From IMG/VR virus record IMGVR_UViG_3300025276_000102, positions 1 through 33,302 of that record: 33,302 bases of DNA; one strand, given 5' to 3'. The notes beneath the pieces are model-generated. The model saw only the letters and a program-made list of their open reading frames with translations, searched no databases and was not told the origin of the DNA. Source of the DNA: a virus. The position numbers and the translations under genes were made by a program. Shown piece by piece: positions 1,591-26,220 of this stretch. How positions within the stretch are numbered: the first letter of the stretch is position 1; every line of letters begins with the position of its first letter.

Positions 1591-4500
1591 ATGGACGAAG
1601 AAAATAATTCTATAAATTATATATACGAAAATTTTGTTTTAGACAAAAATGCGTTTCCAGACTTTGAAAGTTTTAATGAAATGTACAAGGATGCTACTCC
1701 AGAAGAATTATATAATGTTGTTGACCCAGAAGCCTTTCCAGATGTTAATCAGTTTGCAGAAATGTTTGAGTTAGGTGAAGAAAAAGAAGAAAAACCAGAA
1801 TCAAGCGTTTTGACTAATGCTGTAGATTGGTTAAAAAAAAGTTACAATTCATACTTTCCAGACGAAAAAAAAAAAAAAAAAGAAGAAAAATTTCCAGAAT
1901 TTAAAAAAACTCCAGAAGGTGTTTATATTGATATAGCAACTGGAGAAGAAATGCCTTTAATCAAAAAAGGCTCAAAAGAATATAAAGACCGTAGAGGAGA
2001 ACAGCCGTTAGATATGACTAAAGGTTTTGATTTTAAACAATCTGACATTTTAAATACTGACACTAATTTTTATGAAGCTAAAAATAACATAGACTATTCT
2101 CCAGAAAATATTCATAAAAGCCTTAAAGATAATATAGGAAAGTATGGTTTTGTTTTAGATAATCCAAGTTCTAGCAATGCAATTAAAGATGCACTAACTG
2201 GAGATTTAGAGACTCTTAACTTACCAATAGAAGGTAGTGGTAATGAATCTGTTACGGTGGTTTCTACAAACGGATTAAATCGTTTTCGAATAGAACTAAA
2301 AAATGGAGCTGTACAAAATCAAGATGATTTTGATAATTTTTTACAATTTTACGGACAAAATCCAGCCGCTCCTAAACCTAATGATGAAGTTATAGCTAAA
2401 TCATTACAGGTAAAAGAATCACGTTCTGGAGCAAGATGGAATTCAGATACTAAAGATTATTCTAATGTATTAATGACAACAGTAGAGATGGATGGAGTTA
2501 ACTATGCCCTACCTTCATTGTTTCCTAAAAACCCAGAAGCTCAATCTACATATGCAGAAGATTGGATTCAATTTAATCCAAAAACACAAACTAAAGAAAT
2601 GATTGCTTTAGCTCGTGAACGAGGAGAGTTGTATGCTTTTGATAATGAAGAACAGGCTAATGATTTTGCTGGTGGTTTGTGGAAAGAAGCTAATACAGTA
2701 GATTTAGAAAAACAATTGTTTTTTAAAAAAAATGGAGTAGATAATTATACCTCAATATTTAAAGCTCTTAATAAATATGAAAAAGCAAGAGATGAAGTTT
2801 TTTTTATTGACGATGTACTTTTTAACAATAAAGTAGAAATGTCAATGACAGATTTATCTTTAAAAGGAGGAGCTCCTACTCCTGTAGACAGAAATGTTCC
2901 TAAGGTTACTAAAGAAGAAAAATTACTTTACCCATATTTATTTAATAAAGACGGAAAGTTAAGAGCAGATTATAAAGCTTACAGAAACAAAAAAAATGAA
3001 CAAAGAGATAATCTATACAACATTACACAAGACCAAAACTTTGTAGCTACTACTATTGCTTGGGATATAGAAGCAGCTAAACGAAGGCAAGTATATACTG
3101 ACCAAGCTTATCAAATAGATAAACAAGCACAAATGTCAGAAGTGGTGTTGAATAATTTTGCCATAGAAAAATTTGGCAAAAAAATAAGTAATTTACCTTT
3201 AATGATTTCCGAAGGAGACTATGATGAAGCAGATATAAGTTTAGTAAATTTTATGGTAGCAGCAAAAGCTCAGATAGATATGGATAAAAAATATGCTGCT
3301 GACCAATTTTTTGTTTCAAAAACATATTTAGATTCTAAAAATCTTAAATACGCTCAAGGAAAAGTATTAAAAGGAATGTGGAATAATGTTTCTAATGAAT
3401 GGAATACTCGTAGAAAAAGAGGAGAGGCTGGTAAAGTAATTTTAGCTATGGGCGTATCTGATAGTCCTACAGAAACAGAAGATATATTAGGAATGTCTAG
3501 AGAAGAAGCGGCAAAATATATTTCGGATAAACTAATGGAATCAACTACTTCCAGCAAAGGTAGTTCTATAGAAATGTTAGAGTGGAATAGAAGTAAAGGT
3601 TTTAGAGAAAGTGTAGATGTTTTATTAGATAACCCTTTAGATATGGGATTGTCTTTATCGGCTGGTTCTTTTTCCGAAATATTACCTTATGGAGTACAAA
3701 TGGTTTTAGGAGCAGGGGGTATAAATGCTAGTATGGCAGCTATATTAACGAAAGGACCTCTTCAAGCAAAAGTATTTGCTGGGTTAAAAGGTTTAGTTAA
3801 AGGAATGCAAGTAGGAGCGGCTGGAACTTTAATTGCAATGGAATATACTAATGCTGCTTTTGAAGCAATGACATTAAAAGGATATGACATAGCTAGTCCA
3901 GAAAGTGTTTTAAAAGCCGTTCAAGATGATAATGTTTGGACAGAAGCAAGAAATGTTGGTTTAGCAAGAGGTATCCCTATTGCTATAGTAGATTATTTTA
4001 CAGCTAGAATGGCTGGTAGAATATTGATGGGTAGAAGTACTTTTGGTTGGAGAAAATATGGTTTGTTGGCTGTAGAAAGGTCACTTATTGACCCTGCTGG
4101 TGAAGCTTATGGTGAATATTTAGCTCAATTAAATAATCAGTTATTAAACAATAAAGAATTTAGAGCAGAAGAAATTGGTTTAGAAGCAATTGGTGCATTT
4201 GGAAGTAATTTTAGTAATCAGGTTGCGAATGGATTTGTAACTGCTTTAAAAAATGAAAGAATTATTGCTGGAGAACGAATGTCAGGAAACCAAGGTACTG
4301 CTAATTACTCTGAAAGAATTGGTAATAGTGAGCAGGTAAGTAATTGGGCAAATTCAATGGAAGAAACAAAACAATTATCTACATCCACGGTTCAAGATAT
4401 ACAAGAAAATATAGGAGCTAAAAGAGAAGCTAAGACTTTAATGCAAATGAATGATGGGCAAGTTACTAATTCTAAAGATTTACCTATTCAAACTACAATG

Positions 4501-7500
4501 ATGGAGTTGATAAGATTACAAAATCAATTATCCATATCCCCAACTTCTACAACTATATTTGGAAAAGAAATAGGTTTGATTAAACAAGCTTTAAATACTT
4601 TAGCGATTAACAAGGTCTTTAATCCAGGTGATGAAAACATACAAGCTTTAAGCCAACTTTCTGATAAACTATTTAATAAACCTTTTTTCAATCTTGAAAC
4701 TCAAGAATTAAAAGATGTTAAGGGAACTGTAATAGAGGAAGAAAATAAAGTTGAAGATGTCCAAAAAACAGAAACACAAGTAGAGAATACTTCCGAAAAG
4801 CAAACGACACAAGCATTAAACCAAGTTACGAATCAAGAAAGTATTGAAGAAAGTTTAAGTGCTGACATTGAAGATATTAATGGCGAAATTTTATCTGTTA
4901 GACAAGAACTCAAACAGGATTTAAAAAAAACTGGTCTTACTAAAGACCAAAAAGTAGAATATAGAGAAACTGCAAAAGAGTTAATACAGTCTTATAAAGA
5001 AGATATAAAAGAAGCTAAAAGAGAAGCTAAAAGAGAAATAAAAGAAGCTAATAGAGGGGATGTACAGTTGAGTCAAAAAAATATTAGTGAGTTGTTTACT
5101 GATGACAGAACAAGTAATACCAATGTAGTAGCATTTAGTAAAGTTCCTTTAAGTGCAATAAAAGATAAAAGAATTCCAGGTGGTACTACAAGAGATGTTT
5201 ATGACATAGGTAATGATAGAGTAATTAAAATTGCTAAAAATCCTAAAGGTCTGCAACAAAACGCATCTATCGGATATGGAGATGCACGTATGTTAGGAGG
5301 TAAGGTCCCAGAAATTTATGAAGTAGGAACAGATTATCTTGTTGTAGAGAAAGTTCCACGTAATGATAAAGCAGTAAGAGCATTTTTAAAGCCTTTGGAA
5401 AAATTTTCAGCTATAGATTTTGAAGATAGACCTAGAGAGTTAATGAATGTAATGGAAGAGCTAGACTTACAAGACTTTTTAAACTATGATTTATTATGGA
5501 ATGATTTTAAATCTCCAAGAAACTGGGGTCAAAGAGCTGATGGTACTATTGTTTTAGTTGACGAAGGTGCATTAAATAAAAATGTTACCTCTACATCTAA
5601 AGTTCCAGATTGGGCTAGTCAAGAATGGTCTGAAGTAAAACGAGATAGAAAAGGAGGTTCTGATGTAAGTTTAAGCCAAAGACGTATACCTTTAAAAAAC
5701 TTATTGCTTGACTATGGTTATGATACTAAAACTGGATTTTTTCCTAATACAATTTCAAATATAAGTCCATTGAAAAGGGGATTACAAACTTTTGGATATG
5801 ATTTAATAACTAATAATAATGAAGTTACAGGAAAAGTAACTGGGTACCATATTGCTCAAGAAGGAGGTAAAAGAAAATTAGATTTATTTAAAGGAGAAAA
5901 ATTAAAAAGAGAAGCAAAACAAGAAAAGAAAGTTTCTGCAGAAACTCGTAAAGAATTAGTTGAGTTATTAAGTAAAGCATTCCCTGGCGTTAAGGTGTTT
6001 GATAATGTAGAAGCTTTTGAAAAAAACATAAATCAACCAGGAGTAGTAAAAAGACAAACCAAAGATGGATATATTGCTTATGGTGCAAAAGGAGATGGTA
6101 GTATATATTTAAATCCAGATGATAAAACACTTACTCTTCCATTGCACGAATTTGGTCATATGTTTGTTGATTATTTAAAAAGCAAGAGGTCTGGAGAAAA
6201 AGGAAGTTCTCTTTACAAAAGAGGATTACAGCTTATAACATCTACTGAAAAAGGACAAGAAGAATACGATAAACAAGTAAAAATATATGGTGAAGGAAGA
6301 AAAGCAAGAGAAGAAGCTCTTGTTGAATATATAGCTAATGAAGGTAGAAGAAGAGCTGAAGGAGCTCAACAGTCTCAATCAGCAAAAGATAAATTAGCAA
6401 AGTGGTTTGACCTTCTTATGGCATTTGTTAAAAAACAATTTATGAAACTTAAAGATTTGTTTTCTAGTAAAACATTTGCTCAAGACATTCAAGGAATGTC
6501 TTTGGAAGATTTTGTAAATATGTCTCTTAGAGAATTACTGGGAGGACAAGTTATAGATGAAAATGTAGGAGTTGAAATAGAACAAGATGGTCAAATGAGA
6601 TTACCATCTTTATCTCAACAAGAAATACAAGTGCCTAAAGGAACAGACATAAATGTGATAGTTAAAAAATCTAGAGATTTAGGTATTATAGATTCTCAAA
6701 TACGTGAAGTATTAAAAGGTAGAAATAATTTTAGTATTGAAGAAATTAATGATTCTTTAGCATTTGAAATGATTGAGGGTCAAACATTGCCTTTGGCTTT
6801 TAGAGATATGAAAGGTGGTTCTAATATTGGATTAGCTTTATTTACTGAAACTTTCAATAAAGTTTTAGATTTTATTGGTAAAGGAACTACTACACAAGTT
6901 AGAAAAAAACATATTCAAAGAGTTAAAAGAAAATACCCTGCAGCCACTAAAGGTTTAACTGTTCAAGAACTATTAAGAAAATATCCTGTTAATACAAAAT
7001 TAATTGCAGCAGCTAAAACACCTGCAGAAGTTAGAGAGTTTGCAAAAAAATCCTTAGAATCTAACCCTATGTTTGTATCTCAATCAAAAGAAATACAAGA
7101 TAATTTAGTTATTGCATTTGATAGGTCGGTAGGAATATCTGCAAATAAAGATGTTCAAAAAGAAATAAGAGAGTTAAGAAGTAAACTGCAAGTTAGAAGA
7201 AGAACTGAAAAAAATATTCAGAAAGTTAAAAGCGAACTTAATGATTATATAAAACTTAATTTTCCCAAAGGACTTATGGTTCCTAGGGCTGTGATGACTA
7301 AGTTAAATAAATTAATTGCTGGAGTAAATAAAAAAAATTATTTAAGACAAGTTGAGAGTGTAATTCAAGAAATTGATTCTCAAAATGAAAAAATTAAAAA
7401 CAAAGTAATTGATAAAATAAAAAAACTTATTGAGACCAATGCTCGTACTGGCACAACTGCATCTAATAAAACAAGAAAATCAACTAATATAGATGTTACT

Positions 7501-10353
7501 ACAAAAGAATTTTTTATTGCTGCTAAAAAATTAATTGACGCTTATATTACTGGAGATGTAGATGTGTTTTTTAATGAAATTATAGAGCTTTCAGCGTTAG
7601 AAGACACTGTTAGAGCTGCTATTTCTAATCCAACAAACAAAGCTGCTAGAGATTTAGTAGCTAGAGCAGATGCTTTTGCAATATTAGGAAGTCTTCCTAC
7701 AATGTCTCTCCAAGAAATAGAACAAATATTTGAAGATTTAAAAAATCAAAGAGAAATAGGTAGAGAGCAATATGCAGAAGACCAGGCAAAAAGAAAAAAA
7801 GAAATAGATAAATTAAAAACACAAGCTGACACTCAAATAACTAAAACTAATCCAGAATTATTTCTTCCAGATGGAACGCCAGTTAATACTGATAATTTAT
7901 CTCAACAAAGAAGAAGACAAATATTAGATGGATTTGATGCAAATGGTGAAAATAGTTTTATAAAATCAATGAAATCTTATGTTCAAACTGTGGCTGGACA
8001 AAAACTTAGTGATTTTGTAAGAGAAATAAAACTACAAACAAAAGATATGTTAGCTGCAGGAAATTTATTTTACACTTCACTCGACTCCAGACAAGGAAAG
8101 TTTTTTAGTGATGAATTTTTCTATAGACTAACTGATGCTAATGAAATTTATCATCAGATATTTAGAGGAAAACAAAATGCTATGTCTGATATTGCTAACG
8201 AGATATATAAAAAGAAAAAATATCCGAATGTTCTAGGTCGTTTAATGGGTGCTAATTTTGGAAATATTAGTGCTTATCAATATATAAAACAATTAGCAGA
8301 AACCAAAGGTAATATAACTTTAAAAAACATCAACAAACAGGGATTTGATGGAGAAACTACATCTATATTTACTACCGATGAAGCTTTAAGAATGTATGCT
8401 TTATCTCAAAACCCTAGGGGAAGAAGAATACTTTTACGTGATGGTGTTGATGAAAAAATACTTAATCAAATAGAAAAGTTTATAGGAAAAGAGATGATAA
8501 GTTTTGTAGACAATGCAATTGATTACCTTAATACTGTGGGCTATGAACAAGCTAATGATATCCATAGAACAATATTTGGAGTTAATTTACCTTATGAAGA
8601 AAATTATTTTCCTCAAGCTACTGAAAGCAGGAGTGTTAAAGATAAAGACGGTGAAACATCAACTAGACCTACTAAAGGTGAAAGTTTAAGTGTAGACCCA
8701 CAAAGTCCTTTATCCACTATTCAAGCCTTTGCACCTGACAGTTTTTCTGAAAGAACCAAAAATGAAGAAGATTTAAGAATGATTTTAAATTTAGGATTTT
8801 TTCAAGTATTAGATAATTATTTAGAACAAACCTCAAGATTTGAAGCTTATGCTGAACCTGCTAAAATTTTAGAACAAGTACTTCGTATACCTTCAGTAAA
8901 AGCATTATTAGATTTTACTGGATTAAAAAAATCAGTTGTATATAATATTAATGTAGAACTTGACCCTAAAGGAATAACAAGAGGAGTGGATAAATCGATA
9001 ATAATTTCTAGAGGCGTTAATCTAATGACTAGCTATTATCTTTCATTAAAATTAATGCAAGTTCCTAAACAAGCTTCTTCTTATGTATTGGCATATCCTT
9101 TATATACTACTGGTAAATATAGTGTGTATAAAAAAAGACTAGCTGGTGACCCTATATTTGAAAAAAACAGAAATGTTATTTTGCAGGTACCAGAATTATT
9201 AGCTCAAGCTCTTAGTTCAGTTCCTAGTGAAGCCATTACGTTTGCTGAATTTAATGCTAAAGCTGTAAAATATTTTGCTAATTATAAAAGTAGTGTAGCT
9301 AAAATGAGAAGAATTTCTGCTACTATTGACTCTAGAGTTTTAGAAGCTTCAGAGGGAAATATATATGCTTTATATAGTGGAAGAGAAATGGAAGGAACTC
9401 CTGAGATGATTAAAAAATATGGAGCTTCTTATAAATTAATTGCTCAAACATTTGGATACTTTACTAACGTAGGAGATATAGCAGGTATTATAGGTTATCT
9501 TATCGTGTATGATGAGCTGGTGGATAATCAAGGATTTTCTCACGAAGATGCTCTAAGAGTTTTTAATGATTACAATTTAACCAATCAAAGCCGTAGAGGT
9601 ATAGACAAGGTGGGAATTCAATCTTCTAAAAACGGTTTAGCAAAATTATTTACATCATTTACAAGTTCACCGATACAATTAGCTAACAATACTTATATTG
9701 CTGCTTCTAATATTTCTAAAGATACTGCTCAAAACAAAGTTCCAGATATGAAAGATGTTAGGGCTTTGGGTCTTAACGCTTCTTTAAGTACAATGTACTT
9801 TTTAGCAATAGGAAATATAGCTTTATTATTATTAGGAAAGTCAGATAAAGATGATGATTTTGATGATAGAGAAAAATTCTGGGAAAGAGTAACTAAAATG
9901 TATGGATTAATAGGATTAGTTAATGCTATTCCTACCTTAGGTCAAGCAATTCAAACTTTTATAAATGAAAAAGAAGGTAAGGGTTGGAAAAAAGCTGATG
10001 CTAACATCACTAGTCCATTAAACGAGTTTGCCGAAACATTTGGTGCTATTCTTAATGAGGAAAATAAAGATGACCCTATACTAATACCTATTATGTATGA
10101 ATTAATGCAGTTTGCTATGGGAGTACAATTAACTCCAATTGAAGCTGCGTATAATATGGCTAACGACCAAGAACATTTAGCATACTGGTTTTTAATATTC
10201 GCTGGTATATCTCCAGGAAGTATTCCAGAAAGATTTAAACCAGATAAGAAAAGCAAAAAGAAATATAACTATAACCAAGCGAGTCCTACTCAAAGAATAA
10301 TAGATTCCAAGCAAAGAACCAGAGGGAAAAAATATAAAAATTTTAGAAAATAA
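1591..10353 (+). CDS. Large polyvalent protein: kinase-like and zincin domains, probable internal/ejected virion protein
   Basis: A 2920-aa multidomain protein. Residues about 10-60 hold two copies of an AFPDxxxFxEM[YF] motif. Residues 274-366 (MDGVNYALPSLFP, RGELYAF, GGLWKE) resemble a module frequent in giant phage virion proteins. A kinase-like domain at about 1190-1340 has a glycine-rich start (G1197-G1207), K1213 in VIKIAK, a catalytic-loop-like D1305 with N1311, and D1324-E-G in place of DFG. A zincin-like peptidase at about 1370-1670 has H1519-E-F-G-H1523 with E1575 or E1579 as likely third ligand. Coiled-coil-rich stretches follow. The C-terminus (about 2430-2900), with a hydrophobic segment near 2738-2749, resembles the large polyvalent proteins of podoviruses. 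Such proteins are typically packaged and ejected with the DNA. An A17 run at 1865-1881 lies inside the reading frame. Confidence 0.85.
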   Translation: MDEENNSINYIYENFVLDKNAFPDFESFNEMYKDATPEELYNVVDPEAFPDVNQFAEMFELGEEKEEKPESSVLTNAVDWLKKSYNSYFPDEKKKKKEEKFPEFKKTPEGVYIDIATGEEMPLIKKGSKEYKDRRGEQPLDMTKGFDFKQSDILNTDTNFYEAKNNIDYSPENIHKSLKDNIGKYGFVLDNPSSSNAIKDALTGDLETLNLPIEGSGNESVTVVSTNGLNRFRIELKNGAVQNQDDFDNFLQFYGQNPAAPKPNDEVIAKSLQVKESRSGARWNSDTKDYSNVLMTTVEMDGVNYALPSLFPKNPEAQSTYAEDWIQFNPKTQTKEMIALARERGELYAFDNEEQANDFAGGLWKEANTVDLEKQLFFKKNGVDNYTSIFKALNKYEKARDEVFFIDDVLFNNKVEMSMTDLSLKGGAPTPVDRNVPKVTKEEKLLYPYLFNKDGKLRADYKAYRNKKNEQRDNLYNITQDQNFVATTIAWDIEAAKRRQVYTDQAYQIDKQAQMSEVVLNNFAIEKFGKKISNLPLMISEGDYDEADISLVNFMVAAKAQIDMDKKYAADQFFVSKTYLDSKNLKYAQGKVLKGMWNNVSNEWNTRRKRGEAGKVILAMGVSDSPTETEDILGMSREEAAKYISDKLMESTTSSKGSSIEMLEWNRSKGFRESVDVLLDNPLDMGLSLSAGSFSEILPYGVQMVLGAGGINASMAAILTKGPLQAKVFAGLKGLVKGMQVGAAGTLIAMEYTNAAFEAMTLKGYDIASPESVLKAVQDDNVWTEARNVGLARGIPIAIVDYFTARMAGRILMGRSTFGWRKYGLLAVERSLIDPAGEAYGEYLAQLNNQLLNNKEFRAEEIGLEAIGAFGSNFSNQVANGFVTALKNERIIAGERMSGNQGTANYSERIGNSEQVSNWANSMEETKQLSTSTVQDIQENIGAKREAKTLMQMNDGQVTNSKDLPIQTTMMELIRLQNQLSISPTSTTIFGKEIGLIKQALNTLAINKVFNPGDENIQALSQLSDKLFNKPFFNLETQELKDVKGTVIEEENKVEDVQKTETQVENTSEKQTTQALNQVTNQESIEESLSADIEDINGEILSVRQELKQDLKKTGLTKDQKVEYRETAKELIQSYKEDIKEAKREAKREIKEANRGDVQLSQKNISELFTDDRTSNTNVVAFSKVPLSAIKDKRIPGGTTRDVYDIGNDRVIKIAKNPKGLQQNASIGYGDARMLGGKVPEIYEVGTDYLVVEKVPRNDKAVRAFLKPLEKFSAIDFEDRPRELMNVMEELDLQDFLNYDLLWNDFKSPRNWGQRADGTIVLVDEGALNKNVTSTSKVPDWASQEWSEVKRDRKGGSDVSLSQRRIPLKNLLLDYGYDTKTGFFPNTISNISPLKRGLQTFGYDLITNNNEVTGKVTGYHIAQEGGKRKLDLFKGEKLKREAKQEKKVSAETRKELVELLSKAFPGVKVFDNVEAFEKNINQPGVVKRQTKDGYIAYGAKGDGSIYLNPDDKTLTLPLHEFGHMFVDYLKSKRSGEKGSSLYKRGLQLITSTEKGQEEYDKQVKIYGEGRKAREEALVEYIANEGRRRAEGAQQSQSAKDKLAKWFDLLMAFVKKQFMKLKDLFSSKTFAQDIQGMSLEDFVNMSLRELLGGQVIDENVGVEIEQDGQMRLPSLSQQEIQVPKGTDINVIVKKSRDLGIIDSQIREVLKGRNNFSIEEINDSLAFEMIEGQTLPLAFRDMKGGSNIGLALFTETFNKVLDFIGKGTTTQVRKKHIQRVKRKYPAATKGLTVQELLRKYPVNTKLIAAAKTPAEVREFAKKSLESNPMFVSQSKEIQDNLVIAFDRSVGISANKDVQKEIRELRSKLQVRRRTEKNIQKVKSELNDYIKLNFPKGLMVPRAVMTKLNKLIAGVNKKNYLRQVESVIQEIDSQNEKIKNKVIDKIKKLIETNARTGTTASNKTRKSTNIDVTTKEFFIAAKKLIDAYITGDVDVFFNEIIELSALEDTVRAAISNPTNKAARDLVARADAFAILGSLPTMSLQEIEQIFEDLKNQREIGREQYAEDQAKRKKEIDKLKTQADTQITKTNPELFLPDGTPVNTDNLSQQRRRQILDGFDANGENSFIKSMKSYVQTVAGQKLSDFVREIKLQTKDMLAAGNLFYTSLDSRQGKFFSDEFFYRLTDANEIYHQIFRGKQNAMSDIANEIYKKKKYPNVLGRLMGANFGNISAYQYIKQLAETKGNITLKNINKQGFDGETTSIFTTDEALRMYALSQNPRGRRILLRDGVDEKILNQIEKFIGKEMISFVDNAIDYLNTVGYEQANDIHRTIFGVNLPYEENYFPQATESRSVKDKDGETSTRPTKGESLSVDPQSPLSTIQAFAPDSFSERTKNEEDLRMILNLGFFQVLDNYLEQTSRFEAYAEPAKILEQVLRIPSVKALLDFTGLKKSVVYNINVELDPKGITRGVDKSIIISRGVNLMTSYYLSLKLMQVPKQASSYVLAYPLYTTGKYSVYKKRLAGDPIFEKNRNVILQVPELLAQALSSVPSEAITFAEFNAKAVKYFANYKSSVAKMRRISATIDSRVLEASEGNIYALYSGREMEGTPEMIKKYGASYKLIAQTFGYFTNVGDIAGIIGYLIVYDELVDNQGFSHEDALRVFNDYNLTNQSRRGIDKVGIQSSKNGLAKLFTSFTSSPIQLANNTYIAASNISKDTAQNKVPDMKDVRALGLNASLSTMYFLAIGNIALLLLGKSDKDDDFDDREKFWERVTKMYGLIGLVNAIPTLGQAIQTFINEKEGKGWKKADANITSPLNEFAETFGAILNEENKDDPILIPIMYELMQFAMGVQLTPIEAAYNMANDQEHLAYWFLIFAGISPGSIPERFKPDKKSKKKYNYNQASPTQRIIDSKQRTRGKKYKNFRK

Positions 10354-19988: not shown

Positions 19989-20358
19989 ATATAAATGTAT
20001 TAACCTTTATGTTAAAAAGTTTTGTTTCCATTTCTTTTAAATCTTGAGAGACCTCCATAGTTCTGTCATAATAATAACAATAGTTGTTATCAGGTAATAA
20101 CTGCACACAATAACCTCCAACATATCTTATAATGTCCGTAGAGTTAGGTAGTAATCTTAATCCGTGATTCACTATTCTTGAATCTCTTAATTTAAAATAA
20201 TCGTCATAAGTTTCTCTTTTCATTAATTCTCCAGTTTTTCTAAACTGAAATAAAGTCATTTTTTGTTTGTCACAAAATTGTTGAAGCTTTTGAATTCGTT
20301 TTTTATTTGGAGTTTTCTCTTGTTTTCTCCACAAAATTTCTTCTAATATAATTTTCAT
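19966..20358 (-). CDS. Unknown protein, 130 aa
   Basis: I do not recognise this protein. The N-terminal 60 residues are basic and helical, with LQQFCDKQKMTLFQFRKTGELMKRE resembling a helix-turn-helix-like arrangement. The middle is Tyr-rich (NNYCYYYDR). Its start is preceded by a good promoter at 20386-20415, so it opens the transcript that continues into the DUF3310-like gene. Confidence 0.65.
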   Translation of the reverse strand: MKIILEEILWRKQEKTPNKKRIQKLQQFCDKQKMTLFQFRKTGELMKRETYDDYFKLRDSRIVNHGLRLLPNSTDIIRYVGGYCVQLLPDNNYCYYYDRTMEVSQDLKEMETKLFNIKVNTFIFDYGRGE

Positions 20359-20385
20359 AATATAATTTTTAGTTTATCAGTTGTG

Positions 20386-20415
20386 TAAAGTTAGTATAAA
20401 TTAATTGGACATCAA
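20386..20415 (-). promoter_or_regulatory. Promoter for the 130-aa gene
   Basis: On the minus strand TTG (20415-20413; TTTTG in context) is followed after 19 nt by TAACTTTA (20393-20386), one base from TAnnTTTG. The predicted start site is about 20 nt before the ATG at 20358. Confidence 0.5.
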
Positions 20416-20583
20416 AACATCAGAGCCTTTTAAATACCAATGCCCATTAATTAATTTTTTCTCACAAAGTCTCCAGCTAAAGTTTTTTAATTTTTCTTTT
20501 TTTAAAAGATTTTCTGTTTTTTTTAGTCTAACCTTCATCTCAAGGTTCTGAGCAATTAATTTAGCGTAATATTTTTCTTGCAT
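20401..20583 (-). CDS. Small coiled-coil protein (60 aa), unknown
   Basis: The first 35 residues are a charged helix with heptad-like Leu spacing (EMKVRLKKTENLLKKEKL), followed by a short WRLCEKKLINGHWYLKG segment that looks like a beta hairpin. It overlaps the upstream gene by 23 nt. No family is recognised. Confidence 0.55.
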   Translation of the reverse strand: MQEKYYAKLIAQNLEMKVRLKKTENLLKKEKLKNFSWRLCEKKLINGHWYLKGSDVLMSN

Positions 20584-20827
20584 TTTTGTATGTTTTAAGT
20601 ATGTATTTTCTCATATCATTAGATATAGGTAGCATTTTATCTCGTACTCTATATTTAGGTGTAATAGCTATGAGTCTGTTATTATGTTCTTCCTTACCGC
20701 TATATTTAAAATAGTCGTTAAGTTCTATCGTAGATAACTTGTATCTCTCTGCCTCTAATTGCTTTTTATAAACTTCAGCAATTACGTTTCTACCCAAGCT
20801 ACTCATTGGAGTCAAATAAATTTTCAT
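20561..20827 (-). CDS. Unknown basic protein, 88 aa
   Basis: I do not recognise this protein. It is basic, with an N-terminal helix after LGRNVIAEVYKKQLEAERY and a Lys/Arg-rich C-terminus (KYILKTYKNARKILR). It overlaps both neighbours by 20-30 nt, as is typical of this block of small early genes. Confidence 0.6.
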   Translation of the reverse strand: MKIYLTPMSSLGRNVIAEVYKKQLEAERYKLSTIELNDYFKYSGKEEHNNRLIAITPKYRVRDKMLPISNDMRKYILKTYKNARKILR

Positions 20828-21005
20828 CCCAAAATGCCCACTTCAATAATTTTTTGTGTGTTTTTTTTCTACGTATTATTCTATTAGATATAAAAGTGTA
20901 TAGATTGTCGAGTTGGTCGGTGTCGCTTATACCTTCCTCTTCATCGTTAATTTGGCTTTGTAGCCATTCTAAAAATTCATCTTCTGATTTGTCATATATA
21001 TCCAT
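20799..21005 (-). CDS. Unknown acidic-then-basic protein, 68 aa
   Basis: The reading frame is open to an ATG at 21056, but the ATG at 21005 is preferred because it lies 2 nt after the stop of the 39-aa membrane-protein gene. From there the protein begins MDIYDKSEDEFLEWLQ, has an acidic centre (NDEEEGISDTDQLD) and ends with a basic, Trp-containing helix. No family is recognised. Confidence 0.55.
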   Translation of the reverse strand: MDIYDKSEDEFLEWLQSQINDEEEGISDTDQLDNLYTFISNRIIRRKKTHKKLLKWAFWDENLFDSNE

Positions 21006-21007
21006 AA

Positions 21008-21127
21008 TTAATAAAATATCCATATTGCAACGTATCCAAATAAAAAGATTAGACAAAGAGTTACCAGTTCCAATAATACTTCTACTGGATTCTCTTTACA
21101 TTCTTTAATAAATTCTTTTAAGTTCAT
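21008..21127 (-). CDS. Single-pass membrane peptide (39 aa)
   Basis: A 39-codon ORF starting MNLKEFIKECKENP and followed by an uninterrupted hydrophobic segment (about residues 16-39) ending WIFY. It lies directly downstream of a strong promoter and 2 nt before the next gene. It is probably an inner-membrane peptide with a short cytoplasmic head. Early phage membrane peptides often interfere with host functions, but no specific role is visible. Confidence 0.6.
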   Translation of the reverse strand: MNLKEFIKECKENPVEVLLELVTLCLIFLFGYVAIWIFY

Positions 21128-21148
21128 ATTGTTAGTTTTAGTATTAAA

Positions 21149-21179
21149 CAAAAATACAACATTATTTAGACGTATCCAA
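21149..21179 (-). promoter_or_regulatory. Promoter for the 39-aa membrane peptide operon
   Basis: On the minus strand TTG (21179-21177, within TATTTGG), 20 nt, then TATTTTTG (21156-21149): an exact TAnnTTTG box at ideal spacing. The -33 region belongs to a 13-bp sequence that is repeated at 21030-21042. Confidence 0.65.
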
Positions 21180-21218
21180 ATAATATTGCATTAAGTTGAT
21201 GGGTTGTTTCCTACCATT

Positions 21219-21458
21219 TTACCCAAATGGTATGGTAAACGCAGGTTTAATTTTTGCATCATTTATCATTTGATAATATTCATCATAATGGTAGTCAAAA
21301 AGTTTTTGTCCTTCGTCTGTGTATCTAGTCTCTAATATTTGTCCTTTATCATTAACCACTTCTATTATCAGTTCAGAGTCTACTAAGTTTTGAGGGTGGA
21401 TTTTTTTGTGTGCTAGATTTGTAGCTAGTTCTACGTGGTTTATTTTTATGTATTGCAT
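21219..21458 (-). CDS. Unknown protein, 79 aa
   Basis: A small mixed alpha/beta protein with a beta-rich centre (SELIIEVVNDKGQILETRYTDEG) and a Tyr-rich helix. Its ATG overlaps the stop of the upstream 78-aa gene by 1 nt. An 8-bp hairpin (21212-21232) covers its stop codon but lacks a T-run. No family is recognised. Confidence 0.6.
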   Translation of the reverse strand: MQYIKINHVELATNLAHKKIHPQNLVDSELIIEVVNDKGQILETRYTDEGQKLFDYHYDEYYQMINDAKIKPAFTIPFG

Positions 21459-21694
21459 TATTGTTTTATTTTTAAATTATGTACCATTTGTTGCACATCA
21501 TCAATTTGATTGAGTGCTATCATAACTTCTGTGTTATATTGTGTTATGGTTTTTAGTTCATCATACGACATAGTTATAAGTGTATCTGCATTGTTACCTC
21601 TTTCTTTAAGGAACGTTTTTTTAACCTCTATGCTCTCTTTCATTATGACCGCATAAACTTCATCTAGTAATAGATGTATTCTTTTGTTTTCCAT
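21458..21694 (-). CDS. Unknown helical protein, 78 aa
   Basis: An all-helical small protein (LLLDEVYAVIMKESIEVKKTF, then a C-terminal helix with heptad-like spacing). It is one of four adjacent small genes (21458-22268) whose starts share an A-rich leader ending (A)TAAATAAAATGG or a close variant. No family is recognised. Confidence 0.6.
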   Translation of the reverse strand: MENKRIHLLLDEVYAVIMKESIEVKKTFLKERGNNADTLITMSYDELKTITQYNTEVMIALNQIDDVQQMVHNLKIKQ

Positions 21695-21695
21695 T

Positions 21696-21851
21696 TTATT
21701 TATTTTTAGTGTTTAATTTATTTTCTAATTCTTCAATATAATCCATAAAGGCTTTTACATAATATTTTTTATCAGTGGTTAATTCTTCAAGTATTCCACT
21801 ATTAAAGTAATTAAATCCATCATCTACTTTGTCTATCAGTTTTTTATCCAT
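21696..21851 (-). CDS. Small helical protein (51 aa), unknown
   Basis: A 51-codon ORF beginning MDKKLIDKVDDGFNYF, acidic and helical, ending in a Lys/Asn tail. It fits between neighbours, has the same TAAATAAAATGG leader as the genes on either side, and its stop is 1 nt from the next ATG. No family is recognised. Confidence 0.6.
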   Translation of the reverse strand: MDKKLIDKVDDGFNYFNSGILEELTTDKKYYVKAFMDYIEELENKLNTKNK

Positions 21852-21868
21852 TTTATTTATTAATTAAT

Positions 21869-22060
21869 TTATATAAAGACATCGCATCCTCCATTCTCCC
21901 ATTCCTCAACGAAAGAGAATATCTCCTCTATCTCGTGGGTGCTTTTGTTGAATGTTTTTGACTTGTCTAATTGTTCTACTCCTTCAAAAACTACTATTGG
22001 AGTAATATCCATTCCATTGCTGAAATGTATTTCGATGTTTGTTTTTTGGTGTGTGTCCAT
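21869..22060 (-). CDS. Small acidic protein (63 aa), unknown
   Basis: It begins MDTHQKTNIEIHF and has an acidic helix near the C-terminus (HEIEEIFSFVEEWENGG). It shares the TAAATAAAATGG leader. Its start is 1 nt from the stop of the upstream gene. No family is recognised. Confidence 0.6.
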   Translation of the reverse strand: MDTHQKTNIEIHFSNGMDITPIVVFEGVEQLDKSKTFNKSTHEIEEIFSFVEEWENGGCDVFI

Positions 22061-22061
22061 T

Positions 22062-22268
22062 TTATTTATTTAGTTCAGGTAAATTGTTATGTAATCGTTC
22101 CATTTCCGCATAGTCTGTTATGTCTTCTACGCTTTCTATGTTTAAAGGGTGGTGGTCTTTAGCATACATTTTCAAATCATCTTGAATATAATGGTGTGCA
22201 TTTAGCATCATATCCTCTTCAGTCTGTCCTGATATATGGCTTAAAATTATTGTTACTTTAAATTCCAT
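22062..22268 (-). CDS. Unknown protein (68 aa) behind hammerhead ribozyme A
   Basis: A small protein beginning MEFKVTIILSHISGQTEEDMM, with His-rich segments (NAHHY, KDHHPL) and an acidic C-terminal helix. No family is recognised. Its ATG follows hammerhead ribozyme A: the core GAAAC ends exactly 26 nt before the start codon. After self-cleavage its message would begin with the folded ribozyme at its 5' end. It is the first of four small genes with similar leaders. Confidence 0.65.
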   Translation of the reverse strand: MEFKVTIILSHISGQTEEDMMLNAHHYIQDDLKMYAKDHHPLNIESVEDITDYAEMERLHNNLPELNK

Positions 22269-22289
22269 TTTGTTTGTTTTAAATTTATA

Positions 22290-22342
22290 ATCTGTTTCAT
22301 CGTTTTCGAATCTTCAGTCGAGATACACATCTCGATACAGAT
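22290..22342 (-). ncRNA. Hammerhead ribozyme A (type III topology)
   Basis: On the minus strand, 5' to 3': stem III strand AUCUGU (22342-22337), cleavage nucleotide A (22336, GUA triplet), stem I UCGAGAU with loop GUGU and AUCUCGA (22335-22318), core CUGAAGA (22317-22311), stem II UUCG-AAAA-CGAU (22310-22299), then GAA and ACAGAU closing a perfect 6-bp stem III. Core CUGANGA plus GAAAC with three helices is the hammerhead signature. Stem II is only 3 bp and its first pair is a U-U mismatch. Predicted cleavage is between 22336 and 22335. Confidence 0.85.
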
Positions 22343-22343
22343 A

Positions 22344-22369
22344 GGGAGAAGATGACAAAAACTTCTCCC
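22344..22369 (-). other. Hairpin after the amidotransferase gene
   Basis: A perfect 8-bp stem (GGGAGAAG/CTTCTCCC; 22344-22351 and 22362-22369) with a 10-nt loop lies between the amidotransferase stop and ribozyme A. It lacks a following T-run on the minus strand. It would protect the 3' end of the upstream message left by ribozyme cleavage rather than terminate it. Confidence 0.5.
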
Positions 22370-22380
22370 CATTAACAAGG

Positions 22381-23481
22381 CTATCTTAAGACCTCATCTT
22401 CTGTAAAACTTGCATTGCATTCTTCACAATAATACTTAGAGTTGCTTACCTCTGCCGTGTCTTCCACTAATTCAGTGATACAAGTACAACAATACTTCGT
22501 TTCTTCCTCATCAGCTATTTCCTCCATAAATTTGACGCTTGCAAATAAACTATTGTATTGTTCATTATATCTAGGCACCATTTTATAAGGTTTGTAGGTA
22601 TAGTTGTTATAATCTATTCTTGGTCTTTTTGGCTTGTCCAGAGTATAGTCGCTTATACATTTAGTATTTGGATTAAAACTTCTATTCTGTACAAAGTATA
22701 CCCAACATAGTTTAGTTCCTCCCTTCTCTAAATTAAGAGTTATTTGCTTTCTAGCATAGTGTCTAGGGTGTCCTTCTAGTCGGTCAAGGTTTTCTAGAGT
22801 GTCTTTGTTAACCGCATAAACTTCTAGTACTACTTTCTTACCTGCACCAACGACATCGTGTAAATAAGGTAGACCGCTTACCTCTAAAGGATAAGGGTTT
22901 TGAGTATATGCTTTAGATATAAACTTAGCATTCTTTAAATAACCGCTATTACCTAGTCCTTTTCTTAGAGTCCCATACACACCTACAATAGTGTCTTGGA
23001 TAACATTAGTTTTAGAATACCAAACGTTATCTTGGTTAAACCAAAGGTCTCTGTTGTAGATTTGAAAAGTTCTGTTTCTTGTATTAACGGAAACAAACCT
23101 TGAGTCATATTTACCTAGCTTTGATTTCCATTCTGTTCTTGGTACACCACCTAGTTCTTGTGCTAGTGCTTTACTATCGCAAGTCTTGTTATCTCCGTAA
23201 CCTTGAACAGTTCCATTGTGAAATAGAAATTCATCTGAAAATTTACCGCAATTGAATGGGTGGGTGTTTTCTAGATTGATTGCACCTTTTGTAGCAAATC
23301 TAAAATGTGCTATATATGGTCTCGATGTATCAAGTAATTTGTAGTCATTAGAATTGTGATACTCTACATTATAAGTATCTAGCCAAATGATTCCTAGTCC
23401 GTGCTGATTAATTCGTGCTGAATTTTTTAAGGTTTGCATAGGTACCTTATTACCTTTTTGCTTTACAATTATTATACACAT
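22381..23481 (-). CDS. Class II glutamine amidotransferase / gamma-glutamylcyclotransferase fusion with zinc ribbon
   Basis: A 366-aa three-part protein. Residues 1-160 are a class II glutamine amidotransferase: nucleophile C2 exposed after Met removal, AHFRFATKG (58-66), HNG (88-90) and CDS (101-103). Residues about 165-270 are a gamma-glutamylcyclotransferase/AIG2-like domain: VYGTLRKG (168-175) for gamma-glutamyl binding and LDRLEGHP with E236 as probable acid/base. The C-terminus holds two Cys pairs (YCCTC and YYCEEC), a zinc-ribbon pattern. Glutamine hydrolysis or gamma-glutamyl transfer is expected. Together with the amidoligase at 24255-25331 it forms a predicted amide- or peptide-bond-modifying system. 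It has its own promoter at 23553-23560 and is followed by ribozyme A. Confidence 0.85.
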   Translation of the reverse strand: MCIIIVKQKGNKVPMQTLKNSARINQHGLGIIWLDTYNVEYHNSNDYKLLDTSRPYIAHFRFATKGAINLENTHPFNCGKFSDEFLFHNGTVQGYGDNKTCDSKALAQELGGVPRTEWKSKLGKYDSRFVSVNTRNRTFQIYNRDLWFNQDNVWYSKTNVIQDTIVGVYGTLRKGLGNSGYLKNAKFISKAYTQNPYPLEVSGLPYLHDVVGAGKKVVLEVYAVNKDTLENLDRLEGHPRHYARKQITLNLEKGGTKLCWVYFVQNRSFNPNTKCISDYTLDKPKRPRIDYNNYTYKPYKMVPRYNEQYNSLFASVKFMEEIADEEETKYCCTCITELVEDTAEVSNSKYYCEECNASFTEDEVLR

Positions 23482-23552
23482 AGTTTGTTGTTTGTGAGGA
23501 GAAACACTACTCTGCCGCTTGGCTTTGCTATTTCTGACCTCTGATTATTGTA

Positions 23553-23560
23553 CAAAGATA
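23553..23560 (-). promoter_or_regulatory. Promoter -7 box for the amidotransferase gene
   Basis: TATCTTTG on the minus strand is an exact TAnnTTTG match, giving a leader of about 65 nt before the ATG at 23481. No clear TTG is seen about 20 nt upstream, so it may need an activator; a palindrome lies just beyond at 23606-23623. Confidence 0.5.
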
Positions 23561-23605
23561 AGACATTTTTTAGACATAACCTAATAATATAGGCTTTATT
23601 TTAAA

Positions 23606-23623
23606 TTGGTCGTGTACGACCAA
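23606..23623. promoter_or_regulatory. TCGTRTACGAC palindrome (upstream of amidotransferase promoter)
   Basis: TTGGTCG-TGTA-CGACCAA, a 7-bp inverted repeat. Related palindromes are at 16811-16826, 24229-24244 and 26221-26241. It lies about 45 nt upstream of the -7 box, a position suited to a regulator-binding site. No T-run follows on the minus strand, so it is not a standard terminator. Confidence 0.45.
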
Positions 23624-23648
23624 AAAAAGGTTTAACTGCAGATTTCCT

Positions 23649-23720
23649 TTAATTCCTCGAATTTTGACCTTCATAGATGAGTTCTAACAGACTTTCTCTG
23701 TCCTCCCAATACCTCAGCAT
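23649..23720 (-). CDS. Possible 23-aa peptide ORF (doubtful)
   Basis: It begins MLRYWEDRESLLELIYEG after a GGGGG stretch and would form an acidic amphipathic helix. The codons are GC-richer than in neighbouring genes, which argues for a structured RNA instead. It is reported only because the peptide looks protein-like. Confidence 0.2.
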   Translation of the reverse strand: MLRYWEDRESLLELIYEGQNSRN

Positions 23721-23811
23721 CCCCCTATTTTACCTTTTATTGTGCAATTTACCTGCACATCTCATCTGCCCATTATGGGCTAAAAATGCCCATTTGGGGA
23801 AATATATATAT

Positions 23812-23838
23812 AAAAAAAAGAGAGACAAATTGCCTCTC
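23812..23838 (-). terminator. Intrinsic terminator after the 81-aa gene
   Basis: On the minus strand GAGAGGC-AATTT-GTCTCTC (23838-23820, 7 bp with one G-U pair) is followed by eight T (23819-23812). It lies 46 nt after the stop at 23884. Confidence 0.8.
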
Positions 23839-23883
23839 CTTTAATTTTTTAGAAGACTTTTCCCTGTCCTCAAATTACAGGGA

Positions 23884-24129
23884 TTACTCTCCCATTAAAA
23901 GATAATCGTTTTTTCCATTGTTTATTATCTCTTCGTTATGCTTGGCTAACAAAGTAAGATACCAAACTACTATCTTTTTAGCTTCTCTTTTTTTCATACC
24001 GAACTCCTCGATTAAATAAATTCCAGCACCCAGCATATTTGTTTCTCCGCTATCGCTTAAATTGTCTAAGAATTCTTTGTATTCGTTTTTGTAAAAATTG
24101 TGAATTGCATTTGTTGTTTCCATTGTCAT
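23884..24129 (-). CDS. Unknown helical protein (81 aa) behind hammerhead ribozyme B
   Basis: A helical protein with NMLGAGIYLIEEFGMKKREAKKIVVWYLTLL (about 31-61), which reads like a small helix-turn-helix-like or adaptor fold. No family is recognised. Its ATG is 26 nt after the end of the ribozyme B core, the same distance as in the 68-aa gene behind ribozyme A. Met3 is an alternative start. The gene is followed by a strong terminator, so it forms a one-gene message after ribozyme cleavage. Confidence 0.65.
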   Translation of the reverse strand: MTMETTNAIHNFYKNEYKEFLDNLSDSGETNMLGAGIYLIEEFGMKKREAKKIVVWYLTLLAKHNEEIINNGKNDYLLMGE

Positions 24130-24150
24130 TTTTGTTTTAATTGTTATTAT

Positions 24151-24203
24151 TATTGTTTCTGTCTTTTGACTTCATCAGCTAGGATACACATCCTAGAACA
24201 AAA
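24151..24203 (-). ncRNA. Hammerhead ribozyme B (type III topology)
   Basis: On the minus strand, 5' to 3': stem III strand ending UUGU (24201-24198), cleavage nucleotide U (24197, GUU triplet), stem I CUAGGAU with loop GUGU and AUCCUAG (24196-24179), canonical core CUGAUGA (24178-24172), stem II AGUC-AAAA-GACA (24171-24160) and GAAACAA. Stem I has different bases from ribozyme A but the same 7-bp length and loop; stem II has the same 3-bp, AAAA-loop form with a mismatched first pair. Stem III is weaker (4 bp). Predicted cleavage is between 24197 and 24196. Confidence 0.85.
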
Positions 24204-24228
24204 GCAGTTTAGAATCTTGCTTAGGATT

Positions 24229-24244
24229 TGGTCGTATACGACCA
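24229..24244. promoter_or_regulatory. TCGTATACGAC palindrome (after amidoligase gene)
   Basis: TGGTCGTATACGACCA is a perfect 16-bp palindrome 11 nt after the amidoligase stop codon. A 21-bp stretch around it is repeated with one mismatch at 26221-26241. It could be an operator or a hairpin; no T-run follows. Confidence 0.5.
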
Positions 24245-24254
24245 TTAAAATTAA

Positions 24255-25331
24255 TCAGTTACCTAATTTTTGACTGAATTTAATCTCTTGATTTCTCCAC
24301 ATTCTTAAAGCCTTAGGAGTTAAAAACTTCTTTGGGATTGAATCGAATTCAGTATCACTATAACCTAAATTATTATTTCTAGCGAAAATAAATGGTAAAA
24401 CCTTTTCATCAACTTTATCTTGCATTAATAGTTTATTAAATGATTTCGCTAGCACTATCATTTCTTTTGCTGCATCTTCACTTGCATACATTTTACTTAA
24501 GATAGGTAAGATAAGTTTATTAAACTTGCTTAAAGGCTCTCTTTTAGCAGCACACTCACATAGTATTTGCATCAGTTTATATCTATTTTTCATCTGTTGC
24601 ACACTGGTAAATCTAGAGAATAATCTGAATTCAACACATCCATAATTTTTAAGATTAATTGGTGAATATTTGCTATATGAGCGAACAATTTGGTCACTAC
24701 CTACCGCAACATTTACATTCGTACAACACCATTTATTAGCTAATCTTTTTCTGTTCATTGCATAGAATATTGCTATATATGGTCTTAATGTTTCAAAGTA
24801 TTGACTAGCACTAGTATAATTGCTATCAGCTATTGTAATATGTCCACCGCATTTATAGGCACCATTTTCAAACGTATCACTACTAGCAAACTCTTCATTT
24901 ATAAACTCTTTTGCTTCGGTCATCATATTAAAGACTTTATTTCTCCATTTACTAGATGGAATTAAAGGTAAAATGTTAGTAATTGACTCATATACGCAGG
25001 TCGAATCATCTTCGATAGCTGCAAATAATGTTGGATTTTTACTTAGATTTCTACCTCTTAAAACACTAGTCGGCAATGTCATTTTTTCAACTTCCATTCC
25101 TATCGTAAATCTAGTTTTAATTTGACCGTCTATTATTTTTGTGTTTGTCTCTATTTGCTTTTTATTCATACCAAATAAATCTATTTTTGTTCTAGTAGCA
25201 TTTAAAAATATTGCTTCGCAGCCTCTACCGTATCCGCTCCATACATTTCTAGCTACTATTCTACCATCAGCATTTGGAGCCATATTTGGTAAGATGTTGT
25301 GGTAATTAATACCGTTTATTGAATTTGTCAT
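24255..25331 (-). CDS. Amidoligase-like protein (glutamine synthetase-related COOH-NH2 ligase)
   Basis: This 358-aa protein shows the pattern of the amidoligase branch of the glutamine synthetase/GCS fold: the first strand RFTIGMEVE with E80 and E82, D108-D-S110, E115, the central C161-G-G-H164 strand (CG.H motif), a helix with AMNRKRLANKWC (191-202) and the VEFRLF strand with E234 and R236. These acidic and His residues usually bind metal and ATP. Such enzymes form amide bonds between a carboxylate and an amine. Phage members associated with class II amidotransferase and AIG2-like domains have been predicted to modify peptides or make small amides, and this phage encodes exactly such a fusion downstream. 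The substrate is unknown. The N-terminal 70 residues are family-variable. Confidence 0.75.
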   Translation of the reverse strand: MTNSINGINYHNILPNMAPNADGRIVARNVWSGYGRGCEAIFLNATRTKIDLFGMNKKQIETNTKIIDGQIKTRFTIGMEVEKMTLPTSVLRGRNLSKNPTLFAAIEDDSTCVYESITNILPLIPSSKWRNKVFNMMTEAKEFINEEFASSDTFENGAYKCGGHITIADSNYTSASQYFETLRPYIAIFYAMNRKRLANKWCCTNVNVAVGSDQIVRSYSKYSPINLKNYGCVEFRLFSRFTSVQQMKNRYKLMQILCECAAKREPLSKFNKLILPILSKMYASEDAAKEMIVLAKSFNKLLMQDKVDEKVLPFIFARNNNLGYSDTEFDSIPKKFLTPKALRMWRNQEIKFSQKLGN

Positions 25332-25356
25332 TTTGTGTTTTTTTATTAGTTAATTA

Positions 25357-26031
25357 TTAAGATAAGTTTGTAAATGCTTCAGTAGCAATTGGACTGTTTT
25401 CATCGGATGTATTGAATTCAACAAATGGGTTGTATTGTTCTAATCTCTGATTCAAAAAAGCTAGAGCCAATTTAATTTCTTCAATATCATTTTTTGTTAT
25501 TACTTCTAGAGATTCATCTATTCTTAAAGAAATATTTCTTTCAGCATTTTCATCTAGAGTCTTTCTTTTAAATGATAAAGTGAAAATTGTTGGTATTGTT
25601 GCGTTAACTTCTTCTTCATTTGTCTCTAGTAAACCTTTACAAAATTTGTTAAAATTATCTATCGACCTTCCCACATTTTTTCCTTCTGCTTCTTCTTCAT
25701 TGCATACAGTTAAAAATTGACCTAATTTGTCTTCATTTTTACTAGCTTTAATCATTCTATTTAATTGGCTTTGCTTAACTGAAAATACCTTTAGACTCAT
25801 TTCCTCTAGTGACCATTTACATAAATCAGCATTTTCAAAAACAGTATTTGCCTCCTCAGATTTCAGCCATATTTTAAACTCTATTGCTTTTTTTCCTAGT
25901 AGCATTTTATTAGTTAATTTGCTATGATTTGCATTGTTTAAATCATTCGTTAACGTGGTAATGCTACCGAATAAATTTGATACACTGCAATTTTGCAGCA
26001 TTTCTTCTTCGTTTATCATTAAATTTATCAT
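25357..26031 (-). CDS. Unknown protein, 224 aa, partner of the amidoligase gene
   Basis: I do not recognise this protein. It is acidic and largely helical, rich in Asn, Glu and Lys, with FKIWLKSEEANTVFENADLCKWSLEEMSLKVFSVKQSQLNRMIKASKNEDKLGQFL (about 52-107) resembling a phage DNA-binding or replication accessory helix bundle. It is the first gene of the minus-strand block and lies 25 nt before the amidoligase, so the two are likely co-transcribed. A perfect palindrome (26061-26074) lies 30 nt before its start and may control it. Confidence 0.65.
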   Translation of the reverse strand: MINLMINEEEMLQNCSVSNLFGSITTLTNDLNNANHSKLTNKMLLGKKAIEFKIWLKSEEANTVFENADLCKWSLEEMSLKVFSVKQSQLNRMIKASKNEDKLGQFLTVCNEEEAEGKNVGRSIDNFNKFCKGLLETNEEEVNATIPTIFTLSFKRKTLDENAERNISLRIDESLEVITKNDIEEIKLALAFLNQRLEQYNPFVEFNTSDENSPIATEAFTNLS

Positions 26032-26060
26032 CTTATTTTTGTTTTTTTAGATGTTTTGTC

Positions 26061-26074
26061 GGACAATATTGTCC
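26061..26074. promoter_or_regulatory. Perfect 14-bp palindrome, candidate operator
   Basis: GGACAATATTGTCC lies 30 nt upstream of the 224-aa gene start. The length and symmetry are those of a dimeric repressor site. I see no second copy in the window. Confidence 0.45.
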
Positions 26075-26220
26075 TATAATTAAGTTACAAATACTGTATT
26101 TTACTAGATATAGTCTAATAAATGTAGCTGTAATGTATGTTGATTTCTTAATCATAGTATAAATATACTTAAAAGCATTGAATAAATAGCACTGATATAG
26201 GTTAATGTTTGCTTTGTCTA

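Follow-up and report, generated by a model that had tools for sequence, protein, structure and literature searches.

This locus raises the question of whether a short motif on the minus strand, lying between an amidotransferase gene and a small gene in a putative phage operon, is a genuine hammerhead ribozyme and, if so, what a self-cleaving RNA would do at such a gene border. Hammerheads associate with phages, and a review describes their roles in prokaryotes as still open (PMC6155905); Perreault et al. 2011 reported hammerheads flanking genes in prophages and suggested that they process long phage transcripts (PMC3088659). We addressed the question in the IMG/VR record IMGVR_UViG_3300025276_000102, the whole 33,302-nucleotide stretch of which is called the window below. 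The following features are relevant to the analysis:

22290..22342, minus strand: type III hammerhead ribozyme A, with a GUA site, U-U at 10.1-11.1 and a predicted cut at 22336/22335
22343..22370, minus strand: 5' hairpin of A, GGGGAGAAG-UUUUUGUCAU-CUUCUCCCU, adjoining stem III and predicted to form the 3' end of the upstream message
22381..23481, minus strand: gene upstream of A for a class II amidotransferase / gamma-glutamyl cyclotransferase fusion of 366 aa (phrog_2520, PF06094, PF13230)
22062..22268, minus strand: 68-aa gene downstream of A, with its start codon 21 nt past the ribozyme, matching no family
24153..24201, minus strand: type III hammerhead ribozyme B, with a GUU site, A-A at 10.1-11.1 and a predicted cut at 24197/24196
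24202..24222, minus strand: 5' hairpin of B, AAGCA-AGAUUCUAAAC-UGCUU
24255..25331, minus strand: 358-aa gene upstream of B, tentatively classed as amidoligase-like
23884..24129, minus strand: 81-aa gene downstream of B
23816..23842, minus strand: intrinsic-terminator-like hairpin with a U run, after the 81-aa gene

Assignment of the window to a Bacteroidota phage, proposed by the sequence-only reading, agrees with its primase, which has relatives in phages of Flavobacterium, Polaribacter, Cellulophaga and other Bacteroidota. A blastn search of window positions 20000-26200 against phages gave no match, and whole-record searches of the nearest named relatives, MW202828 and OQ984151, found no ribozyme. 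The window also encodes a phage GroEL (27137-28765, plus strand; phrog_5725, PF00118) and contains an open reading frame of 2920 aa that matches no Pfam family (1591-10353, plus strand).

Read on the minus strand from 22342 to 22290, ribozyme A is AUCUGU A UCGAGAU GUGU AUCUCGA CUGAAGA U UCG AAAA CGA U GAA ACAGAU. All helices and both core strands described by the sequence-only reading are present, namely a 6-bp stem III, a perfect 7-bp stem I capped by a GUGU loop, the core strands CUGAAGA and GAAA, and the cleavage triplet GUA. Stem II is indeed small (3 bp) and opens with a U-U mismatch at 10.1-11.1, the cleavage position predicted between 22336 and 22335 fits this layout, and the placement between the amidotransferase fusion and the 68-aa gene is correct; that reading is silent on the abutting 5' hairpin and on any connection of the GUA site with the U-U mismatch. 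A type III descriptor matches the window at A and at a second hammerhead, ribozyme B, which runs from 24201 to 24153 on the minus strand. The helix sequences of the two differ throughout and their layout is the same: both have a 7-bp stem I, a GUGU loop, the CUGANGA/GAAA core, a mismatch at 10.1-11.1, a 3-bp stem II and an AAAA loop, with a stem III of 6 bp in A and only 4 bp in B. Since the folding energy of A is unremarkable (z -1.26), we rejected it as evidence and relied on the descriptor instead. The predicted probability of stem III in its sequence context is 0.07 for A and 0.03 for B, in a secondary-structure prediction that ignores loop-loop contacts.

When the whole window was searched with Rfam, no hammerhead was returned at the gathering score or at E<=10. 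A match of RF00008 to ribozyme A, at 31.5 bits where the gathering score is 48.5 bits, appeared only when the search was restricted to 69 nt. Two relatives with the canonical G-C pair scored about 41 bits with RF00008, also under the gathering score, and Rfam at threshold gave no hammerhead match in 13 loci bearing such ribozymes. Because the gathering threshold missed every copy tested at it, the abundance of such hammerheads in viromes is probably underestimated. We built two covariance models of the family: R1 from 46 members, both window copies included, and R2 from 29 sequences, all with G-C at 10.1-11.1, whose source was restricted to contigs in cellular genome assemblies, so that neither the window nor IMG/VR contributed to it. 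R2 scored ribozyme A at 61.2 bits (E 7e-17), and across the window it matched both copies at 61 bits (E ~1e-16) and nothing further. The covariance-model match expected for A thus failed at the Rfam cut-off and was obtained with the family-specific model.

The family to which A and B belong is, judged by sequence, large, widespread among phages and mostly uncatalogued. The pattern GTGTN7CTGANGAN4AAAAN4GAAAC occurs in at least 120 IMG/VR contig stretches and in 47 stretches of cellular genome assemblies, many of them assigned to Patescibacteria. Loci L123-L169, on contigs assigned to various bacteria, Patescibacteria among them, have hammerheads of the same form, with up to 10 in a single assembly (G067). 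Phage contigs carry one to five copies in whole-record searches, and the conservation that the sequence-only reading had anticipated is borne out by hammerhead copies in related phage contigs. In culture, Flavobacterium phage elemoE_10-3D carries one copy, upstream of gp48, and the 115 nt surrounding this ribozyme are matched at 99% or more in 68 elemovirus isolates on Flavobacterium sp. BAL314.

Several lines of evidence identify these RNAs as type III hammerheads. Stems I and II are closed and stem III is open; in the family alignment, 99.7% of stem I, 100% of stem II and 86% of stem III cells are paired, and double changes occur in every stem, so that compensatory variation supports all three helices. 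The core is CUGANGA with GAAA and includes A15.1-U16.1, and the loops are conserved across the family as U-GUGU-R with AAAA or GAAA. Both window copies obey the NUH triplet rule, with GUA in A and GUU in B. Scans of all of IMG/VR by triplet returned 107 contig stretches with GUC, 98 with GUA, 43 with GUU and none with GUG, and G17 was likewise found in none of the 335 non-identical copies pooled from viral and cellular contigs; as position 17 is unpaired, its absence is what selection for cleavage would be expected to produce. The departure from the class lies at 10.1-11.1, where G-C is replaced by U-U in A, by A-A in B and by a mismatch in about half of the viral copies. We counted the U-U mismatch as a variant and not as grounds for exclusion, because natural U-U members have been reported (PMC3088659). 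This mismatch, at a position that is normally G-C, together with the 3-bp stem II, would be compatible with a decayed or chance hammerhead that is inactive. We consider such an explanation highly improbable, given that a descriptor similar to the one used on the window matched 225 times in 1.64 Mb of fetched sequence and not once after that sequence had been reversed, that G17 is never seen and the helices are maintained by compensation, and that U10.1-U11.1 hammerheads exist in nature and, according to work cited in PMC3088659, U-U is more active than any other mispair. Together with the matches of the independently trained model, these data indicate that ribozyme A is a real hammerhead, one of two in this phage, and very probably an active self-cleaver.

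The identity of the 10.1-11.1 pair is linked to that of the nucleotide at the cleavage site, N17. Overall, C17 goes with G-C, A17 with U-U, and U17 with A-A or U-U. Among unique viral motifs, A17 was accompanied by U-U in 75, G-C in 14 and G-U in 2; C17 by G-C in 86, A-A in 7 and U-U in 1; and U17 by U-U in 13, A-A in 9 and G-C in 3. Most U17 copies in cellular contigs keep G-C, and the association is a strong preference, not a rule. The idea of a coupling was formed on a first sample and then tested separately. Shared ancestry could account for the association without any functional coupling, as many copies are closely related, and a test of phylogenetically independent pairs on gene trees yielded one to three well-supported pairs per site, too few to reach significance. 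We nevertheless regard ancestry as a rather unlikely explanation. The association holds inside single contigs, where 29 of 31 copies obey it against 16.9 expected when pairs are shuffled within contigs (p 5e-5). It recurs in a largely independent later sample, obtained with a GAAA loop II pattern after removal of close relatives of the earlier copies, with odds ratios of 13 for A17/U-U (p 9e-4) and 18 for C17/G-C (p 5e-4) in 37 non-redundant copies. Parsimony at the cyclotransferase site counts 7 changes at N17, 5 at 10.1-11.1 and only 7 jointly, and mutual information over all column pairs is highest outside the helices for 17-11.1 and 17-10.1, exceeding even one stem III pair. A physical route is suggested by a hammerhead crystal structure in which the nucleobase preceding the cut is stacked on G12, which itself forms a sheared pair with A9 next to G10.1-C11.1 (PMC11300833). 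This stacking is seen in the pseudoknot hammerhead, which shares the catalytic core with the phage family and differs from it in having a pseudoknot in place of the loop I - loop II contact, G10.1-C11.1 and a C at the cleavage site (PMC11300833).

The second recurrent feature is a hairpin on the 5' side of the ribozyme. Folding of the 45 nt that precede stem III gives z < -2 against shuffled sequence in 63% of 280 copies, compared with 36% of 458 other tandem gene gaps of the same contigs (p 3e-15); the corresponding values are 70% against 9% in the later sample and 62% against 20% in cellular contigs. Strong hairpins are thus enriched here and not unique, since about one third of copies have none and 36% of the other gaps have one. 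With a span of about 24 nt, the hairpin stops short of stem III by a median of 1 nt, and no U-tract follows it. Its stem shows covariation: between the window and locus L086, where the ribozyme is identical, GGGGAGAAG/CUUCUCCC and GGAGGGAAG/CUUCCCUCC differ by compensatory changes, and 34 copies that share the inner stem GUGUC..GACAC vary in the outer one, where each of the six variable pairs has changed in a compensatory way. The same inner stem is found elsewhere, as an intergenic hairpin GTGTC-TTCAAA-GACAC repeated in many viral loci (e.g. L188, L189, L195); of 204 non-redundant GTGTC-N6-GACAC sites, 46 adjoin hammerheads and 158 lie elsewhere, often near gene ends or leaders. Loops of 11 nt like that of hairpin B occur at B's site in L037, L081 and L261, and similar 11-nt loops with a UAAAC end, which may represent a conserved loop motif, are seen in these loci, in L127 and at window 24202-24222. 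Between the 358-aa gene and hairpin B, the window also has a perfect 14-nt palindrome, GGTCGTATACGACC (24230-24243). The Bacteroidota promoter pattern TTTG-N-TANNTTTG showed no excess over chance and was discarded.

The hairpin and ribozyme lie in a characteristic genomic setting. Where neighbours could be read, 189 copies are intergenic between co-directional genes, 31 follow and 12 precede a gene on the opposite strand, and 3 are antisense to both neighbours; 75 of the 335 copies fall inside crudely called ORFs, a placement that is provisional for most of them. The tandem gaps have a median of 110 nt and a constant layout of stop codon, about 33 nt, ribozyme, about 23 nt and ATG, suggesting a module of stop, hairpin, ribozyme, leader and start codon in which the hairpin usually abuts stem III. 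Counting the window, 24 loci have a homologue of the amidotransferase/cyclotransferase gene immediately before a hammerhead, and in about 30 loci a homologue of the 358-aa gene takes that place. The latter gene has a weak profile match to phage amidoligase, no Pfam match and a low-confidence structure model (pLDDT 56). On the downstream side, the 68-aa gene has near-identical homologues only in L059 and L065, and the gene after A differs among the window, L055 and L086, although the ribozyme is identical. In other loci (L203, L205, L208, L079 and similar), hammerheads separate genes for an ATPase (phrog_1297), DUF3150 and DUF2201_N/VWA proteins, with one ribozyme per junction in several phages.

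We therefore propose, with a probability of roughly 0.8, that A and B are active cis-cleaving type III hammerheads that cut polycistronic phage RNA into separately stable, hairpin-ended messages, and that N17 and 10.1-11.1 co-evolve. The transcript would be cut co-transcriptionally after N17, at A22336 in A and U24197 in B. At its 3' end the upstream fragment would have the hairpin, some 7 nt more and a 2',3'-cyclic phosphate, which would let the hairpin act as a 3' end without a terminator, and the downstream fragment would begin with a 5'-OH, followed by stem I, a short leader and the start codon. One long transcript would in this way give separately stable messages for neighbouring genes, and splitting the message between the amidotransferase fusion and the 68-aa gene is the most likely role of ribozyme A, as the sequence-only reading had suggested. 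The probable reason for the co-evolution of N17 and 10.1-11.1 is that both are packed against the general-base layer formed by G12 paired to A9. To a more specific version, in which the two sites are functionally coupled via G12/A9, the pair tunes the nucleotide that is cut, and ribozyme and abutting hairpin form a terminator-free 3'-end cassette at gene borders, we would give even odds.

Other functions of the hairpin and of cleavage have to be weighed against this proposal. An intrinsic terminator was rejected for most copies, which mostly have 2-3 T among the 8 nt after the hairpin, and so was the idea that the hairpin strips the product strand from stem III after cleavage, as its overlap is no greater than with swapped strands (p 0.62). 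The hairpin might instead insulate ribozyme folding from pairing with the upstream message, protection of the end being incidental, which its distance of 0-3 nt from stem III in most copies would suit. When the 45 upstream nt were shuffled, however, the predicted stem III probability was slightly higher than with the native sequence (0.21 versus 0.16, p 0.02, tertiary contacts being ignored), and we consider insulation quite unlikely. As predicted folding supports neither insulation nor product stripping, protection of the 3' end of the upstream fragment is favoured by elimination as the role of the hairpin. It could also be argued that the ribozymes regulate and do not partition, with cleavage removing 5' structure or separating translational coupling and so tuning the downstream gene only. 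The short and constant leader to the ATG (median 23 nt) would accord with this, as would the cultured Flavobacterium phage copy before gp48, which lacks a strong hairpin and is not directly preceded by an annotated gene on its own strand. Yet the hairpin lies across the cut from the downstream gene and can affect only the upstream message or ribozyme folding, and downstream genes vary among related phages, which makes regulation alone rather doubtful and leads us to prefer partition of the message.

The existence of hammerheads in phages and the U-U mismatch are already published. With the RF00008 type III hammerheads of plant satellite RNAs (e.g. sTRSV) the phage family shares the CUGANGA/GAAA core, topology, NUH triplet and short loops I and II; it differs from them in that about half of its viral copies have U-U or A-A, not G-C, at 10.1-11.1, in its loop pair U-GUGU-R with AAAA or GAAA, in scoring under the Rfam gathering cut-off, and in residing in phage operons and not circular RNAs. 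The hammerheads of Perreault et al. 2011 resemble it in that individual genes or short blocks of (pro)phages are bordered by several ribozymes, and the available part of that paper mentions neither the 5' hairpin module nor A-A at 10.1-11.1 nor a covariation of N17 with this pair (PMC3088659). We found no report of these three features in the open-licence literature, where older hammerhead kinetics, relevant to the N17 link, are sparsely covered. The Pistol ribozyme (RF02679) is also small, self-cleaving and found in phages and belongs to a different ribozyme class; Rfam gave no match to it in the window, and one viral contig carries a Pistol ribozyme (L073:505-574, minus strand, 67 bits) as well as a hammerhead.

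The interest of this locus thus rests more on the hairpin-ribozyme module and the N17 covariation than on the existence of a hammerhead. The covariation amounts to a prediction of coupling within the active site of a ribozyme that ranks among the most studied. Hundreds of phage contigs show the module, as do contigs with a Patescibacteria assignment, and the 68 Flavobacterium elemovirus isolates on strain BAL314 are cultured phages with a copy of the ribozyme. The role of phage hammerheads has been open since their discovery there, and the succession of stop codon, hairpin, ribozyme, leader and ATG offers a specific, testable module through which phages may divide their long transcripts.
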